From a virus, in the IMG/VR virus record IMGVR_UViG_3300027825_000014, positions 1-23,247 of that record: a stretch of 23,247 nt of DNA. One strand, 5' to 3'. Positions 5,796-18,326 of this stretch are shown here, one piece after another. Below the pieces are notes generated by a model. The model saw nothing but the letters and a program-made list of their open reading frames with translations, searched no databases and had not been told where the DNA came from. The position numbers were made by a program, and so were the translations under genes. Positions within the stretch are counted from its first letter, which is position 1. Every line of letters begins with the position of its first letter.

Positions 5796-8111
5796 TTAAT
5801 CACTCGTTGCATTTTGCAAGGTAGCTCCGCTGCTGTTGACAGTTGCTGTGATGTAAATCCGTTCCACGGTGTCGATGGGGATCAGCGCCAGGTTGACGAT
5901 CAACTCGCGCAAATTACGCGTATCAGGCGTGTTGTTGGTGTTATCGATCACCAGGTCGTAGTCCTCGACGCCGCGTTCGGTTTTGACCGTGTCCAAAAAC
6001 TCGGTAAAAGCCAAAGTGACCTGCGTTATCAACTCGGCATCATTCGGCTCAAAAACGAACTTCTTGGCGATTATCGCCAGGTTAGTGATCACGTAGTTGA
6101 CCAGGATGACATTGTGAACCACCGACAGCTTGCTCTCGGCAACTTGCAACGTGCGTTCACCCCAGAGCTTGATCACACCGTCCATGTAGAAGATACCGTT
6201 GACGCTCTGGCCGGTGCCAACGCCATACATGGCCTGCTTGGTGTCGTCGCTGACGCGTTCGTTCTCGACCGTCAGCGCCTCGGGAATAAGGCCACGGGTG
6301 TTGCCCGCCGCCGCATACCAGGGCTTGTTGTAGTCGAACGTAAACGCCAGGCAGCGCAAGGCTCCCACGGTCGGCGGCATCCACTTGGTCTGGGCCGTGA
6401 ACGGGTCGGTGACGGTGAACCAGTTCCAGTAAACCGCGCCGTTGCGACTGTCAATGCGCCCGCGTCCAGTGTAAAGGCCCTGGCCGTTGTGCCAATCAAT
6501 GGCCTGGCGAGCAGTGAGGCCCGGAGGAATGTCGATAAGCGCCACAGCATTCACCTTGGCGGCGACCTGAACCATCATGGCATGAACGCCCGTGGTGTCG
6601 GAGTCGCTGAACGGCTCCAAGTTCTGGTCCCACGGGAACACGTCGTTGCCGCCGTTCGCCTGCGCGTCGGTGACGCCGGGGCAGCAAAGCACGTCAATCT
6701 GGACGTTGTTATTGGTCGCCGGGTCCACAAAGGACTGGATGCCGGTGAAGTAGTCATTGACAGGGTCATAAACGCCGATGAAGTCGGTCGCGGAGGCCCC
6801 CTCGCCGTTCGCCCCAAAGTAGAAGTTGCCGCCCGAATCCTGCGCACCGGCATTGATGGGGACGGTGTTGCCCAGGTAGCCCAGGCTGTAGTTGGCGGGC
6901 TGCATGTCACCCGGCAGCGTGCCATTGCCAAGGATTACTTCGGAACCGATCACGATTTCCTGGGAGAAGCCGTTGATACGGCCCGTGTAGGAATTGGTGC
7001 CGCTGCCCTGGTAAAGGCCATCGATGGTTTCCATCAAGGCCCCGTTCTCATAAATCTCGAATTTTTTGGTGCCCTGGGGACCACCGGGCCGCACCTTGAC
7101 AAACAAACCGTTACTGATGCCGTCGCTGTTGGCCCACTCGCCTGCGCTGGAGGCATTGAGGAACAGGAACGGAATGCGCCCGGTGACCTTGTGAACCGTG
7201 GCGCTCGTGTAGCTGTCCTGAAGCGGCAGCGTCTGGAAGCCGATGTCCTGGCGATCGGTGGTTTCGAAGTAAATCGTGCCATCCGGCAGGGTCTGCTTGA
7301 CGCGAATCTCGTGAGTGGTCGCGAGGCCCGCCTGCTTGATCTTGAGCAGCGTACCAGCCGGAAACATGCTCCAGAACGTCGAGGGATACGAAAGGACCGC
7401 TTGATACGCACCTTTGTTGCCGGAAATGGTAGCCTGGTAGGGACCGGCGTAAATCGGCGCATCATTCCAATCGCCGCCGTTGGTGCCGTAGGTGTAGGCA
7501 TAGAGGATTGATTCCGCCACGTTAAATGCCGGAGCACCCACCGAATAATCCATCGTGGCCAGGCCGTAATCGTAGAAATCCTGAACGGCGTTGGCGTCAG
7601 TGAAAGTAATCATGCCCGCGTCCTGACCATGCCAGCCGCCCGTCAGGGTGCCCACGGTCGCAACCTGGGCATTAACAGTGCTGACTTTGCCCAACTCGCG
7701 AATACTCACGAAAACCACAGGCGAAGTGACGCCACCCGTCTGAACGCCGCCGTCCAGGACCATCGCCTTGACGAACGGCAGAACCGTGCCGGTATCCGAA
7801 AGCTGTGAGGTAACAACCGCCGCGTTGGTGAGAGGAGTGGAATGCTTGCCCACGCGAACGATCTTCATGCCGTCCGTCAGGTCGCTGATCATCGCGACCG
7901 CGTTGGCGAGCCAGAAGTCACCCGACAAAGGCTGTCCGAACTGGCGGATAAAATCGGTCAGCGACACTACTGGTGTCGGCACGTCGAACGGACCCTTGCT
8001 GGCAACCCCCACCAGCCCAGCGCGAAACCGGCTTGTCAGTGGCGTCAGGAAACTCTGATCGAGAATCTGGGTGTAAACTCCCGGAAACGTTTTCGCTGTA
8101 ATGTTTGCCAT
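5796..8111 (-). CDS. Contractile tail sheath protein (T4 gp18 type)
   Basis: 771 residues, longer than T4 gp18 (659). The N-terminus (FPGVYTQILDQSF, then AGLVGVASKGPFDVPTPV, SLTDFIRQFGQ) and the C-terminal domain (LWGERTLQVAESKLSVVHNV, then AELITQVTLAFTEFLDTVKT, ERGVEDYDLVIDNTNNTP, ending LIPIDTVERIYITATV) are the conserved sheath core that links neighbouring subunits in the contractile helix. The middle third, roughly residues 120-450, would hold the surface-exposed variable domains. It is preceded by a 131-base gap with a weak terminator candidate and followed closely by the tail tube gene. The start is the ATG before ANITAKTFPG. A long reading frame on the opposite strand (5748-7511) is only its shadow. 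Confidence 0.94.
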   Translation of the reverse strand: MANITAKTFPGVYTQILDQSFLTPLTSRFRAGLVGVASKGPFDVPTPVVSLTDFIRQFGQPLSGDFWLANAVAMISDLTDGMKIVRVGKHSTPLTNAAVVTSQLSDTGTVLPFVKAMVLDGGVQTGGVTSPVVFVSIRELGKVSTVNAQVATVGTLTGGWHGQDAGMITFTDANAVQDFYDYGLATMDYSVGAPAFNVAESILYAYTYGTNGGDWNDAPIYAGPYQATISGNKGAYQAVLSYPSTFWSMFPAGTLLKIKQAGLATTHEIRVKQTLPDGTIYFETTDRQDIGFQTLPLQDSYTSATVHKVTGRIPFLFLNASSAGEWANSDGISNGLFVKVRPGGPQGTKKFEIYENGALMETIDGLYQGSGTNSYTGRINGFSQEIVIGSEVILGNGTLPGDMQPANYSLGYLGNTVPINAGAQDSGGNFYFGANGEGASATDFIGVYDPVNDYFTGIQSFVDPATNNNVQIDVLCCPGVTDAQANGGNDVFPWDQNLEPFSDSDTTGVHAMMVQVAAKVNAVALIDIPPGLTARQAIDWHNGQGLYTGRGRIDSRNGAVYWNWFTVTDPFTAQTKWMPPTVGALRCLAFTFDYNKPWYAAAGNTRGLIPEALTVENERVSDDTKQAMYGVGTGQSVNGIFYMDGVIKLWGERTLQVAESKLSVVHNVILVNYVITNLAIIAKKFVFEPNDAELITQVTLAFTEFLDTVKTERGVEDYDLVIDNTNNTPDTRNLRELIVNLALIPIDTVERIYITATVNSSGATLQNATSD

Positions 8112-12907: not shown

Positions 12908-15754
12908 TTAATCGCCTTCACCTTCAGGCTTGTGCCGGGGCGGACGACCCTCTTCCTCCTCCTCCTTCTCCTCTTCGTCCTCGTCCTCATCCGGCTCGGG
13001 GATGGCGTCAACAGGAATGCGGTCCTCCTCGCTGCCTTCGCCTGGAGGCAGTTCACCCTCGGGACCAAACTCGCCTTCTTCGCCTGGAGGCAGTTCACCC
13101 TCGGGACCAAACTCGCCTTCGCCCTCTTCAGCCCCCACCAGTTGGGACAAGAGGTCTTTGATGTCCGCCAGCAATTGGAGAACTACGTTACCTTCGGTGT
13201 CGGCACCGACAGCATCATCGCTAACAGGCGGCTCGCTCGGGGGAGGGGATTCCACCGCAGCCATCTCGCCAGCGATCGCGCTCGGAGTTTCGACTTCGTC
13301 GTGCTCGATTTCTTCGATCAGTCTAATGGCTTCGCTGAGTGCTTTCATACTCACAGTATCATTCGCCCCATCGCTGGAGCCGTTTACTCTACTTACGCAC
13401 GTCGCGAGAAAGCGTTCGATGCTTTCCGGGCGCAGGGGCCGTTTTGGTTGGACGCGTTTACCGGGCGGAGTGGTTGCGCCTGCTGGCTTGCCCGATTTGC
13501 GGCCAATAGGCAGATTGTTCTTCAGAAACATCGGTCGCTGGAGCGCAGGTTTCGCGGGCGCTGGCTTCTTAGGCGCAGGCTTCGCAGGCAGCGCCGGGGG
13601 CTTGGCCGCTGGCTTAACCGGGGGTTTGGCCGGGACCTTGGCAGGCGGTGAAGCGGGAGGTAAGCCTCGACCACGCTGACCAGGGGGCACCGCCAGTGCC
13701 GGGGCCGTCGGCGGCTTAGTCGTGGGCTTGCCTGCGGCAGGCAGCACGGGGCCTGGCCGAGGCGGGCGTGGCGGACGCACTGGGGGCGGCAAGGGCGGCG
13801 GCTCTTCGTCGGGCACATTGAAAGCAGGACCGAAAGGACCGCCTCGCGGTGGAACCCCTGCGGGAACGCCGATAAATTGCCCGCCCTTGCGCTGGTACAG
13901 ATCGTAGATGAGGTCGATATTCCCGGCCTGCCCCTGGTTCGCGGCCTGTTTCACCGCCGCATACCACTTCTCCTGGTCCTTAGCCTTGGCCATCAGGGTA
14001 TCGAAATTAGCCCACCGCTTGTTCGCGTATTGCACCAACTGCGCCAGCTTCTCGCCCGTATCTGGCTCGCCGCCAGGGAACTTGGCCAGCATCCCGTAAA
14101 TGTAGTCCCGCGTCGCCAGGATGTGCTTGCACAGGCCGGGAACGTTACCGGGGTTAGTCTTGCGGGGTGCCCGGTTAATACACTGGTTCATGCTCTGAAC
14201 ACCGATGCGGGCCGCGCCGCGCTGCTTGTCGGCCCAGGCAAATCGATAGCGGAAATCCGGGCAATTGTGGACAGCAACACCGCAGACGATAAATGAGGCG
14301 TCCTCCTCAATTGTCAGGTCATAAACCAATCCAGTATAGTTCGTTTTAACACATTTACGAAGACCTCGCAACTGGCCTTCGTTGCGGCTGTAATGCAACC
14401 GATGGAGCCGCTCCCCACTCTCAAACTTTTTGTCTTTCTCACGCTGATACCTGATAAGCCACGCTCGAATCGTGCCCGCAGATTGACCCTTGGGTATCAA
14501 CACCTGGTAATGCCTTCTCTTGCCCGGTTTTTCCTTAGCGTGCAGCGACACGGTATGGCGCACTTTCAACCGGCTAAGGATTAGCGCCGCCTGGGCAGCC
14601 AAGTCAAAGTTCGAAGTCAGGTATTTAATGCCTCTTTCTGGGTCGCACCAGCCATCACCGAGCACCATACCGGTAAATAACTCATGCTGTAAACGGTTGT
14701 TCCAGGACATTACCTCCACCGATAGCCGCTTGGTAAGGCTGCCTTGCCCGGCGTGCATCCGGCAAAACTCCTTAAACTCCTTGCTCAAAATTGAAACATC
14801 AACCCAGTGCCGACCGCTGTGGTGTCTCTTTTTTGCTGAGCAAACGTATCCCAGTTTACGAGCAATGGCTACCACATCGGCTACCAATGTATCCCATTCG
14901 TTTTGGTTGAAAGTCAAGCGCACAGCCCGTCCTCTGGTGTTTGGCAAGCAGCCCTCCGCAACATAGTAGCCCAGCAAACGAGCAAGGTCTGGGTCAACTT
15001 GGCCTGGGCCTTCTTCCAGCCAAGGCGATAAAAACCACTCCTGGGGCCTGAAATCGTTCACTTTGATCCAGTCAAAGTATCCACCACCGGTATTTTCCAG
15101 GCGCTGTCCTTTAATGCTGTGACCAGGCCGGTATTTTTTCGCCAGCATCAAATCCGGTGAAAACGTTTTAGTTTCTGCTCTAAACGCTCCGGTTCCTTGG
15201 CCATAAAGAGGCAAGCCGCAACCGCACAAGCACACTTCATTGCCGCGCAAAGCGTAAAAAGGGTGCTCGCCCGTAACCAAAATAGAACCTGGAAAGCCGC
15301 TGATCTCCAATTCGTAAACGTTTTCACCATGTTTTACGGCCCTGGGCCTGACGCTCAATACTCTGCGCACACGCCCTTTATGCGTATAAACAGTGTCTCC
15401 AATTCGGATGTTCTCAATTGCCTTGTAAGTGCCGTCGCTCATCAGGACAGGCGTGCCCGGTGCAAAACAACTGCAATCGACTTCGCAGGGGATGTGCTGG
15501 AGCGGCTTGCGCGGATTGCCCTTGGGCTTCTTGAACCGGACGTAGCCGTGATGTCGCAAGCCGGTCGTGGACGGGAACGATTTGAAGTTGAAAATGTGGT
15601 AAACCGCGTCCGAGTTGCCGTTGATTTCCAGCGGTGGTCCTCGAACGGTCAGCGACCGCTTCACGCGTTTCGGCTCGCTGTATCGAAACAGTTGGTCGAA
15701 CGTCATGTCCTCGAAAAGGAGGACCGGACGCAAAAATTTTTCAAACCCGCGCAT
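12908..15754 (-). CDS. SWIM zinc-finger phage protein interrupted by an intein
   Basis: 948 residues from ATG 15754; a TTG at 15772 would add six. The precursor is an N-extein of 95 residues, a 402-residue intein (96-497) and a C-extein of 451 residues. The joined extein reads VDCS|CPDFRYRF and later GLCKH, a SWIM-type CxC...CxH zinc site (C94, C96, C140, H142 after splicing). It is followed by helices, a Pro/Ala/Lys-rich linker about 190 residues long, and an acidic tail with a doubled 14-residue unit ending in a Glu/Asp run. I have a recollection of this CSCPDF module in large phage virion-region genes, but no function is known to me. The acidic tail suggests binding to a basic partner or DNA mimicry. 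It lies three bases or so after the 194-aa gene. Confidence 0.85.
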   Translation of the reverse strand: MRGFEKFLRPVLLFEDMTFDQLFRYSEPKRVKRSLTVRGPPLEINGNSDAVYHIFNFKSFPSTTGLRHHGYVRFKKPKGNPRKPLQHIPCEVDCSCFAPGTPVLMSDGTYKAIENIRIGDTVYTHKGRVRRVLSVRPRAVKHGENVYELEISGFPGSILVTGEHPFYALRGNEVCLCGCGLPLYGQGTGAFRAETKTFSPDLMLAKKYRPGHSIKGQRLENTGGGYFDWIKVNDFRPQEWFLSPWLEEGPGQVDPDLARLLGYYVAEGCLPNTRGRAVRLTFNQNEWDTLVADVVAIARKLGYVCSAKKRHHSGRHWVDVSILSKEFKEFCRMHAGQGSLTKRLSVEVMSWNNRLQHELFTGMVLGDGWCDPERGIKYLTSNFDLAAQAALILSRLKVRHTVSLHAKEKPGKRRHYQVLIPKGQSAGTIRAWLIRYQREKDKKFESGERLHRLHYSRNEGQLRGLRKCVKTNYTGLVYDLTIEEDASFIVCGVAVHNCPDFRYRFAWADKQRGAARIGVQSMNQCINRAPRKTNPGNVPGLCKHILATRDYIYGMLAKFPGGEPDTGEKLAQLVQYANKRWANFDTLMAKAKDQEKWYAAVKQAANQGQAGNIDLIYDLYQRKGGQFIGVPAGVPPRGGPFGPAFNVPDEEPPPLPPPVRPPRPPRPGPVLPAAGKPTTKPPTAPALAVPPGQRGRGLPPASPPAKVPAKPPVKPAAKPPALPAKPAPKKPAPAKPALQRPMFLKNNLPIGRKSGKPAGATTPPGKRVQPKRPLRPESIERFLATCVSRVNGSSDGANDTVSMKALSEAIRLIEEIEHDEVETPSAIAGEMAAVESPPPSEPPVSDDAVGADTEGNVVLQLLADIKDLLSQLVGAEEGEGEFGPEGELPPGEEGEFGPEGELPPGEGSEEDRIPVDAIPEPDEDEDEEEKEEEEEGRPPRHKPEGEGD
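13037..13120 (-). repeat. Perfect 42-bp tandem duplication
   Basis: Bases 13037-13078 and 13079-13120 are identical, giving two 14-residue copies of a GEFGPEGELPPGE-containing unit in the acidic tail of the SWIM protein. The absence of any silent difference points to a recent duplication or gene conversion. Confidence 0.95.
14264..15469 (-). other. Intein with LAGLIDADG homing endonuclease domain
   Basis: 402 residues, in frame. Block A is CFAPGTPVLMSDGTYKAIEN with the nucleophile Cys1. Block B is SILVTGEHPFYAL with the T66..H69 pair. The endonuclease motifs are LARLLGYYVAEG (near residue 165-173) and LFTGMVLGDGW (265-274), each with its acidic residue (E172, D272). Block F is VYDLTIEEDASFIV, and block G ends GVAVHN with H401-N402, followed by Cys+1 of the C-extein. 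All splicing and both catalytic acidic residues are present, so the element looks active in splicing and homing. A CLCGCG cluster at residues 80-85 may bind metal. Base composition is lower in GC than the host gene, as expected for an incoming element. Confidence 0.95.
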
Positions 15755-15775
15755 CGGCTGTGCTGTAAACAATCA

Positions 15776-16360
15776 CTATTTTTGTTGCTGCTGCCTGACC
15801 TGCGCAGCTTGAGCCTGCGCCCCAGCCCAGTTCTTGAACCTGCCCCATACACTCTTTACAGGCTGTTGTTGAGCTTGCCGAGCCTGAGCCTGCTGAAATC
15901 TAGCATAACGGGCTTCCTCTCCTGGTTTTGGCAGATACCGTCGATCGCGGCCCTGGCCTGCATCCCTTCCGGCGTAGCCAAAAGTCTTGGCAACCGTGCT
16001 GCTTTCAGGGTTCCGGCCTATCTCTGTAAAAACTTGAACTGCCGTAGTAGGAGTAAGTTGGAGCAATTTGGCCGTATTTGGCCCAAGATGGGTTAAATCA
16101 TTGCCGCCATCGTAAACGCAAATGGTGCGCCCGTTGCGGAAAACAAAAGAAAAACCGCGCCGCATCAACTTATCCAAACAGGCGCTGGCACTGCCGGTTG
16201 CGGGCACCCCCTGGGCGCGGGCCATCTTGCTGATCATCCGATCCAGAGTGCTGCCGGTCACATAATAGCCCTGCGCGGGCAACCCAGGCCCGTAGAGAAT
16301 GCCGAAGGCTGCCACGGTTTCGTCGAGCAGCATTTCCACCAAGATTTGAGCAGGTCGCAT
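15776..16360 (-). CDS. Unknown 194-aa protein with Gln-rich tail
   Basis: 194 residues from ATG 16360. The frame is open further to the right, but that part overlaps the start of the divergent ATPase gene and looks like its antisense, so I chose the internal ATG. The N-terminal half is helical and compact (MRPAQILVEMLLDETVAAFG, LPAQGYYVTGSTLDRMISKM, FSFVFRNGRTICVYDGGNDL), and the C-terminal ~60 residues are basic and very Gln/Ala-rich (QAQARQAQQQ, QAQAAQVRQQQQ). It is the first gene of the operon carrying the intein gene, which starts 3 or 21 bases after its TAG. Family not recognised. Confidence 0.75.
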   Translation of the reverse strand: MRPAQILVEMLLDETVAAFGILYGPGLPAQGYYVTGSTLDRMISKMARAQGVPATGSASACLDKLMRRGFSFVFRNGRTICVYDGGNDLTHLGPNTAKLLQLTPTTAVQVFTEIGRNPESSTVAKTFGYAGRDAGQGRDRRYLPKPGEEARYARFQQAQARQAQQQPVKSVWGRFKNWAGAQAQAAQVRQQQQK

Positions 16361-16388
16361 CGCTGTAACTACCGTGTTCTTACCGGAA

Positions 16389-18326
16389 ATGGCCGACACC
16401 GTGCTGAAATCGATTACGCTTCGCAACTGGACCACCGTCCGGCAGACAACCGTTGAATTTCCTGAACGAGGACTCGTTTTGGTTCGCGGCATCAACGCTG
16501 CCTCACGCGGCAAAATGGCCTCAATAGGCGCTGGAAAAACCGCACTTGGAGAGGCCCTTAGCCGGGCACTCTTTGGATTTCGGGGCCGCTATACCATGCT
16601 CGGGCACTACAGCGCCCACGGCAAAGGCAACAGCTACGTCGCGGTCGAGTGCCTCCACAAGGGCAAACCGCTCAAGGTGGAGATGGGCTTCAAGTGCCCG
16701 GAATTGAGCGCGACCGGCGAGGGCCTGCGTTTCAATTACGACGGCGCGGACGTTCAGCGGGACCACATCCTTAACACCCGTGACGACCTAGCCAAAATCG
16801 TCACGGTGCCGCCCGACTTGTGCGCCTGGACGGTTCATCTGGACGGCGACGTGCTGCGGTTCAGTGACCTGAGCGAGAGCAAGGCCGTGAACCTGCTGAT
16901 GAGCGCTCTCCTTCAGCCCCGCTGGGATTTCTATCAGAAGGCGACCAACGACAAAGCCAACGAACTGAAACGACAAATCGCGAACGACGGCGAGGGCGTC
17001 GAGAACGCCAAAGCCAACGTCAATGAACTGGAAACCGAGTTGCAAACGGCGCGGGCGAACCTGGCGGAAGCTAAAAACGTTTACGACGAGGAAGTTCGGC
17101 AGGCCAAGACGCATCAAAAGCTCATTGCCGGGCGCATCGCCGAAGTAACCGCCCGCATCGGCCAGCGAACGGCGCGGATGACGGAAATCAAAAAGGAAAT
17201 CGACAAACGCGTGGCCCAAAACGCCGAAAAGGAAAAGGCGCTCGAAATCAAGCTGAACGAGGCGCAGGAGGAAAAGGATGGACTGAACGGCACGTGGGCG
17301 GCGCTCCGTTCCAAGGAAGCCACAGCCAAGGCCAGCTTGGACTTCGCCAGGCGGCATCTGGATGAAGCGAAAAAGACACCCAACGCGTGCCCTAACTGCG
17401 GCAAGAAATGGGACCGGGCTGAAACCTCCATCGCCGAGCACAAGAACGACGTGGAGGCTAAGGAGAAAAGCTTCAATGCCGCCGCTAAAGCCGTGAAGGT
17501 CAAGCAACTAGAAGCAGCCAAGGCCCAGGACAAATGGCTGGCCGCTAAGACCACGCTCGATGAGGTCAAGGCCGAAGTGCCCATCGAGGCACTGAGCCAG
17601 GAATACGAGGAACTGGAAACGGCCCAAGCCCCGGACCAGGAATCCCTAGCCGAGGACCAGCAGGAAAAAGTCCGGTTGGAGCAGGGGCCGGATAAAACCG
17701 AAGTCACGCGCTTCGAGACGCAGATCAAGGAACGCGAGCGGGCGGTTAAAAAAGCCAGCACGACGGTTGAAACGACTGCCGCCAAGGTGGTCGAGGGCGA
17801 AGAATTGCTGCGCGTGGTCCAATACTGGCAAGAAGCCTTCGGCCCCACCGGCATCACCAATATGATCCTGGGCGACGCCCTCGGGCCACTCAACGCCACG
17901 TCCCGCCGCGTAAGCGCCGTGCTTTCGGGCGGAACCCTGGCCGTCAGCTACAGCACCAGCCGCCAGTTAAAGACCGGGGCAAACAAATCCGAGTTGGTCA
18001 TCAGCGTGCGCAACGAACTGGGCAGCGAACGGGTCGAGGGCAGTTCCAAGGGCGAAGGCGGCCTGAATAACCTCATTATCGCCGAGACCCTGGCCGAAGT
18101 TGGCGGCGTTGGCCACCGCATCGGCTACCGTTGGTACGATGAAATTCTTTCAAACCAAGACGAAGTCGTCCGTCGTTCTGTGCTAAATTACCTGAGAGAA
18201 ATTGCCGCAAAATACGGCATTCTGGTGTTCGTCGTATCCCACGCCCCAGAAGCTGCCAATTACGCCGACTACACTCTCATTGCGGAGAAGACGCTGGCGG
18301 CGGGGACGACGTATCGGTGGGAATAA
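16389..18326 (+). CDS. Rad50/SbcC/gp46-like recombination ATPase
   Basis: 645 residues from ATG 16389 (a GTG at 16374 would add five). The N-terminal Walker A is IGAGKT (G47-T51), preceded by LVRGINAASRGK, the extended loop seen in phage SbcC-like proteins. Coiled coils run from about 185 to 330 and 345 to 470 around a zinc hook CPNC (C334-C337). The C-terminal lobe has a signature-like SSKGEGG (552-558), Walker B YDEIL (D584, E585) and a switch histidine in VVSHA (H618). Such proteins pair with an SbcD/gp47 nuclease to process DNA ends in recombination-dependent replication. No nuclease partner gene is in the window. The gene lies between two virion operons and is divergent from the 194-aa gene with a gap of only 28 bases. 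Confidence 0.87.
   Translation: MADTVLKSITLRNWTTVRQTTVEFPERGLVLVRGINAASRGKMASIGAGKTALGEALSRALFGFRGRYTMLGHYSAHGKGNSYVAVECLHKGKPLKVEMGFKCPELSATGEGLRFNYDGADVQRDHILNTRDDLAKIVTVPPDLCAWTVHLDGDVLRFSDLSESKAVNLLMSALLQPRWDFYQKATNDKANELKRQIANDGEGVENAKANVNELETELQTARANLAEAKNVYDEEVRQAKTHQKLIAGRIAEVTARIGQRTARMTEIKKEIDKRVAQNAEKEKALEIKLNEAQEEKDGLNGTWAALRSKEATAKASLDFARRHLDEAKKTPNACPNCGKKWDRAETSIAEHKNDVEAKEKSFNAAAKAVKVKQLEAAKAQDKWLAAKTTLDEVKAEVPIEALSQEYEELETAQAPDQESLAEDQQEKVRLEQGPDKTEVTRFETQIKERERAVKKASTTVETTAAKVVEGEELLRVVQYWQEAFGPTGITNMILGDALGPLNATSRRVSAVLSGGTLAVSYSTSRQLKTGANKSELVISVRNELGSERVEGSSKGEGGLNNLIIAETLAEVGGVGHRIGYRWYDEILSNQDEVVRRSVLNYLREIAAKYGILVFVVSHAPEAANYADYTLIAEKTLAAGTTYRWE

Follow-up and report, generated by a model that had tools for sequence, protein, structure and literature searches.

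Inteins are spliced out of their host proteins after translation. In a 23,247-nucleotide stretch of viral DNA (IMG/VR record IMGVR_UViG_3300027825_000014, positions 1 to 23,247; hereafter the window), one such element interrupts a gene of the tail region exactly at a cysteine that is a predicted zinc ligand of the spliced protein. The residue that would carry out the last step of splicing would thus become part of a metal-binding finger. This raises the question of whether the insertion is a switch that controls the host protein, as the original prediction suggested, or whether a conserved cysteine motif is a favorable target for a mobile element.

A predicted class 1 intein interrupts a SWIM-type finger

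The precursor is encoded on the minus strand by a single reading frame (12908..15754; 948 aa, ATG start), with a TTG at 15772 as a possible alternative start. Its N-extein (15470..15754; 95 aa) ends in EVDCS, and its C-extein (12908..14263; 451 aa plus stop) begins with CPDFRYRF and closes with a proline-rich, acidic tail. Between them lies the intein (14264..15469; 402 aa, precursor residues 96-497), excision of which leaves a 546-aa product with the junction VDCS/CPDF (slash, splice junction). The first finger cysteine of the CxC pair, Cys -2, is precursor residue 94 (15473..15475). The second, Cys +1, is residue 498 (14261..14263) and doubles as the predicted splicing nucleophile, and the last two finger ligands (CxH) are supplied by CKH at residues 542-544 (14123..14131). 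The interval originally given for the feature, 14261-15475, runs from the N-extein cysteine codon through the +1 cysteine codon and is consistent with these boundaries, just as the original spliced size of 546 residues agrees with a 948-aa precursor minus a 402-aa intein. We rejected a frameshift, a pseudogene, or an assembly artefact as the source of the insert, given a single open frame of 948 codons and homology to intein-free relatives on both of its sides.

The insert has the make-up of a canonical class 1 LAGLIDADG intein. It starts at a nucleophilic Cys1 (CFAPGTPVLMSDG) within splicing block A (15374..15469), carries the TxxH of block B as TGEH (intein residues 66-69; 15248..15283), and ends in blocks F and G (14264..14332) with the terminal His-Asn followed by the +1 Cys (VAVHN/C). 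Both helices expected of the endonuclease are found, as LAGLIDADG motif 1 (LLGYYVAEG; 14951..14977) and motif 2 (FTGMVLGDG; 14651..14677), each with its catalytic acid intact. The precursor matches Pfam Hom_end_hint (1.6e-9) and LAGLIDADG_3 (2.8e-7, in two stretches), both above the curated cut-off, and the intein scores above the cut-off of NCBIfam intein_Cterm (17.0 versus 15.6 bits) and slightly under that of intein_Nterm (21.0 versus 24.5 bits). PI-SceI is matched by the intein sequence in a PDB search (E 2e-5) and is the top Foldseek match (E 3e-13) of an AF2 precursor model that is itself uncertain (mean pLDDT 70, pTM 0.39, low at the intein junctions). In-frame excision restores a conserved host protein, with which three intein-free relatives (L001, L002, and L015) stay collinear through the splice point. 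The intein, its splice blocks, both LAGLIDADG motifs, the terminal HN, and the exact junction are borne out as they were first described. Splicing, homing, and the constitutive nature of splicing are inferred. It is highly improbable that the intein is dead for splicing, or cleaves instead, so that the gene yields two separate products: all splicing residues and both LAGLIDADG acids are intact, the invariant ligands are retained in the C-extein, and each extein is collinear with intein-free relatives.

The SWIM assignment of the host protein is fair but remote, and we therefore call it SWIM-type rather than a clean Pfam member. Against Pfam SWIM the window protein scores E 0.13 and 12.3 bits, below the cut-off of 19.6, and five of 39 aligned intein-free relatives pass at E 0.01, the best of them at E 9e-4. 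The N-terminal half of the spliced protein matches phrog_18980 (7.8e-9), a PHROG without assigned function that is matched by all 39 of these relatives; the window protein differs from phrog_18980 proteins in having an extra N-terminal region and a long Pro-rich acidic tail. One intein-free relative was modelled with AF2 (pLDDT 89); in BFVD the model matches phage proteins of the SWIM type, and a "SWIM-type domain-containing protein" is its best viral match by fold. No solved structure resembles the model at E <= 0.001.

The CxC, TNP, and CKH columns are invariant in the 39-member intein-free alignment, with the ligands C, C, C, and H all kept. We also scanned viral contigs with the pattern TNPx4GxCKH, which ignores the intein site (the intein-blind scan) and yielded at least 109 stretches with a real finger, at least 80 of them non-redundant; among the matches listed, CxC is present in 78 of 78 intein-free non-redundant members. 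The CxC...CxH motif is a putative zinc-binding site, and the proposal that the +1 Cys becomes a finger ligand gains support from the invariance of this predicted ligand in the 39 intein-free members.

The gene lies in a virion region, as first proposed: a tail sheath gene (5796..8111, minus strand; 771 aa, phrog_23, 4.1e-46) is found downstream on the same strand, and genes for the tail sheath, tail tube, and baseplate hub are all present in the window. In most records examined, including the intein carriers L010, L174, L178, L008, and L007, the SWIM and sheath genes share a strand and are ~3-9 kb apart; in L022, L107, and L146 the two genes are far from each other, and in L011 they occupy opposite strands. 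In Streptococcus phage GXN1, the SWIM gene (L003 5683-6570) sits between the neck protein and tail sheath genes and is unannotated in the public record; a scan with its protein as query gave no relatives. Many myoviruses match the window tail sheath mainly over its C-terminal 250-350 residues, and the rest, which is weakly matched, may hold an inserted domain. An SbcC-like gene (16374-18326, plus strand; phrog_77, 1.8e-34) sits amid the minus-strand tail region in the reverse orientation, and its start overlaps the 5' end of the ORF at 15776-16513 by ~140 bp.

The CxC position is a recurrent intein target

Inteins have repeatedly targeted phage SWIM genes at the CxC position. Pattern scans of viral contigs identify at least 11 distinct inteins at the identical position, those of the window and of ten others in divergent SWIM proteins (L010, L011, L007, L160, L163, L169, L174, L178, L008, and L107), a minimum given the bias of such scans toward the chosen codon patterns. 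L009 and L012 are counted with L007, and L192 with L178. A protein scan of viral contigs found no close relatives of the window intein; the junction pattern HN/CPD[FY]xYRx then recovered them and, together with two patterns for N/Cx[DE]..NP..CKH, located the further inteins, with that of L107 coming from the intein-blind scan. Among the matches listed in the latter scan, 2 of 80 non-redundant SWIM genes carry an intein, each at the CxC site, which is a rough occupancy under the same codon bias, and these SWIM ORFs hold no intein elsewhere. No family member was found in cellular genomes by an extein-alignment search; the sole cellular match of the junction pattern, on an Erwinia contig, falls in an unrelated 126-aa frame and was taken as chance.

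Cys -2 and Cys1 are present in all 11 SWIM-site inteins. So is the +1 Cys, which the junction patterns required; it is also found in both inteins of the intein-blind scan, where the pattern did not impose it. The endonucleases are of different kinds, with LAGLIDADG-like motifs in the window, L010, L011, and L107, an HNH-like endonuclease in L163, L169, L174, and L178, and no endonuclease in L007, L160, and L008. The LAGLIDADG intein of the PaBG-like SWIM gene in L227 and L107 is split by a frameshift, reflecting either sequencing error or decay.

At least two unrelated intein lineages have settled at this site. In a maximum-likelihood tree of splicing domains that included inteins from other sites, a single origin of the SWIM-site inteins was rejected (AU p = 7e-5 with ten, 7e-6 with L107 added as the eleventh); with short, divergent sequences and some long branches, the tree supports solely the statement that there was more than one origin. 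BLAST groups and endonuclease types concur. Group 1, comprising the inteins of the window, L010, and L011, has its nearer relatives among inteins that interrupt other phage genes rather than in the HNH/mini group, to which its matches are weak or insignificant. For one origin of this second (HNH/mini) group the test gave p = 0.34, or 0.06 with L107. Nearest to the window group is the intein of Eggerthella phage LE2-3, at 27-28% identity (E 2e-32 against the window intein).

The LE2-3 intein interrupts LE23_71 (L211, annotated "tRNA synthetase") with the junction SMGLN/C..HN/CETTTCSVCGN..FCNH; its +1 Cys, too, opens a cysteine-rich, probably zinc-binding motif, and the portal gene lies a little upstream. 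Insertion at cysteines that bind metal may be more widespread among inteins. All group 1 inteins carry, after block B and ahead of LAGLIDADG motif 1, CLCGCG followed by PGH or QGH. In the window this CLCGCG...PGH stretch (15119..15232) is a possible metal-binding module for DNA contact, and a C2H2-like stretch, CICGRSFKSHRSLAAH, occupies the equivalent place in the LE2-3 intein. Both stretches are probably DNA-contacting metal-binding units, and the CLCGCG stretch is a possible second zinc site, within the intein.

Probable homing to a near-immutable site

We propose that the window carries, in the tail region of a myovirus, a homing class 1 intein at a recurrent, near-immutable CxC site, a genetic parasite that is spliced out and in leaving completes the finger, and we consider this account probable. 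After translation, Cys1 and the +1 Cys would perform the thioester steps, the intein would depart, and the +1 Cys would then serve as the second ligand of the finger. In alleles that lack the intein, its endonuclease would cut the conserved DNA encoding the CxC motif, so that the element would persist as a parasite of a target hardly able to mutate. Splicing would be expected to be constitutive. Homing of this kind would account for the choice of site, for the invariance of the residue there, and for the two functions of the +1 Cys, and no regulatory benefit need be assumed. Inteins generally favor conserved sites, which resist loss and where imprecise removal is harmful (PMC2814812). Supporting this idea, ten further inteins share the identical position, and intein-bearing and intein-free alleles coexist. 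L001 and L002 are intein-free and 82-88% identical to the window exteins over the core, and L118 is the intein-free counterpart (76% identity) of the intein-bearing L010. The search for intein-free homologs with CxC at this place could have gone against the original reading of the junction; instead, the motif is kept, as VDCTCPD in L001, L002, and L015 where the window intein sits.

An alternative to recent homing is an old, vertically inherited intein that a shared ancestor of the window and L010 lineages already had, followed by precise loss in L001, L002, L015, and L118. This history, which we regard as possible but rather unlikely, fits the similar identities of the window and L010 inteins (54%) and exteins (59%), as well as the lack of a co-conversion tract, in that DNA identity between the window and L002 is not raised beside the insertion point. 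However, it requires several precise losses, and the splicing-domain tree is incompatible with a single ancestral intein across the site. In several other pairs, moreover, the inteins are more alike than the exteins (46% versus 29% identity for L010-L011; 57% versus 33% for L007-L160), suggesting lateral movement between SWIM genes. The endonuclease-less inteins of L007, L160, and L008 persist without mobility and could be of benefit to the phage.

Possible redox or zinc gating of splicing

Such a benefit could take the form of a gate on splicing, set by a disulfide between Cys -2 and Cys1 or by zinc held on Cys -2, Cys1, Cys +1, and CxH in the precursor. Splicing and the finger would then await reducing or low-zinc conditions, delaying the tail-region protein. 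We think such gating improbable. Selection for gating, if real, would explain why one zinc-ligand position was colonized repeatedly and independently, and why inteins that lack an endonuclease have been retained at it. The sequence prerequisite exists, as Cys -2 stands beside Cys1 in all 11 SWIM-site inteins, with at least two independent origins at the one ligand position; precedents are known in MoaA (PMC10663303), in zinc arrest of DnaB (PMC7360933), and in a P-loop serine (PMC6195587). The Cys-x-Cys1 pair, however, is the automatic outcome whenever a class 1 intein inserts at the second CxC cysteine. Furthermore, the nearest alleles and 78 of 80 non-redundant members among the matches listed are intein-free, which implies that these phages need no intein regulator, and the patchy presence of the intein argues against an essential switch. 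A switch controlling the protein is thus not supported in the form originally proposed. The accompanying claim that formation of the finger must await removal of the intein also exceeds the evidence, because the precursor retains all four ligands plus Cys1. The ends of an intein sit close together, which would place Cys +1 near Cys -2 and Cys1; the precursor could hold a zinc site that spans the junction, and such a site could inhibit splicing.

Significance and relation to known inteins

Our survey of the open-access literature found no reports of inteins in phage SWIM or tail-region genes. What is new is the SWIM CxC site as a recurrent intein target; the intein is ordinary, and its location is not. 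In one phage family, a single presumed metal-ligand position has been colonized by two or more unrelated lineages, whose inteins have a LAGLIDADG endonuclease, an HNH endonuclease, or none, and this provides a natural replicate set for asking whether a site is chosen by homing to near-immutable DNA or kept for control at the level of the ligand. With a natural Cys-x-Cys1 pair in every precursor, gating by zinc or redox state becomes testable in about ten divergent cases, some of them paired with intein-free alleles.

The further suggestion that inteins are unusual outside replication enzymes was overstated, as phage terminase and portal inteins are well known (PMC5050341). Inteins of phage terminase, portal, RNR, and methylase genes resemble that of the window in being homing inteins at invariant motifs (PMC5050341), and they differ in the gene that hosts them and in where they insert, with no SWIM protein among the hosts examined. 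A ribonucleotide reductase gene of an uncultured phage (LR756511; L212) apparently carries two inteins in one frame. PI-SceI, the VMA1 intein, shares the Hint plus LAGLIDADG architecture but resides in an unrelated host protein, and its sequence similarity to the window intein lies mainly in block A.

The MoaA intein is inserted within an Fe-S cysteine motif, and its +1 Cys is a cluster ligand. As at the SWIM site, MoaA inteins (in a radical SAM enzyme of Pyrococcus abyssi) have an N-extein Cys near Cys1 and able to pair with it, and there the disulfide with Cys1 and the resulting redox trapping have been demonstrated (PMC10663303). The two differ in cysteine spacing and in host, an archaeal enzyme versus a phage tail-region protein, and redox trapping is shown for MoaA only. 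Mycobacterial DnaB inteins are likewise comparable in that a splicing residue also serves metal coordination in the host protein: the Mg-coordinating P-loop Ser doubles as a catalytic splicing residue (PMC6195587), and zinc binds the catalytic Cys and arrests splicing (PMC7360933). Regulation has been measured in these inteins, with splicing blocked by zinc or oxidant (PMC6195587, PMC7360933). They are class 3 mini-inteins that involve a P-loop Ser and Mg2+, whereas the window intein engages a Cys of a predicted zinc finger.
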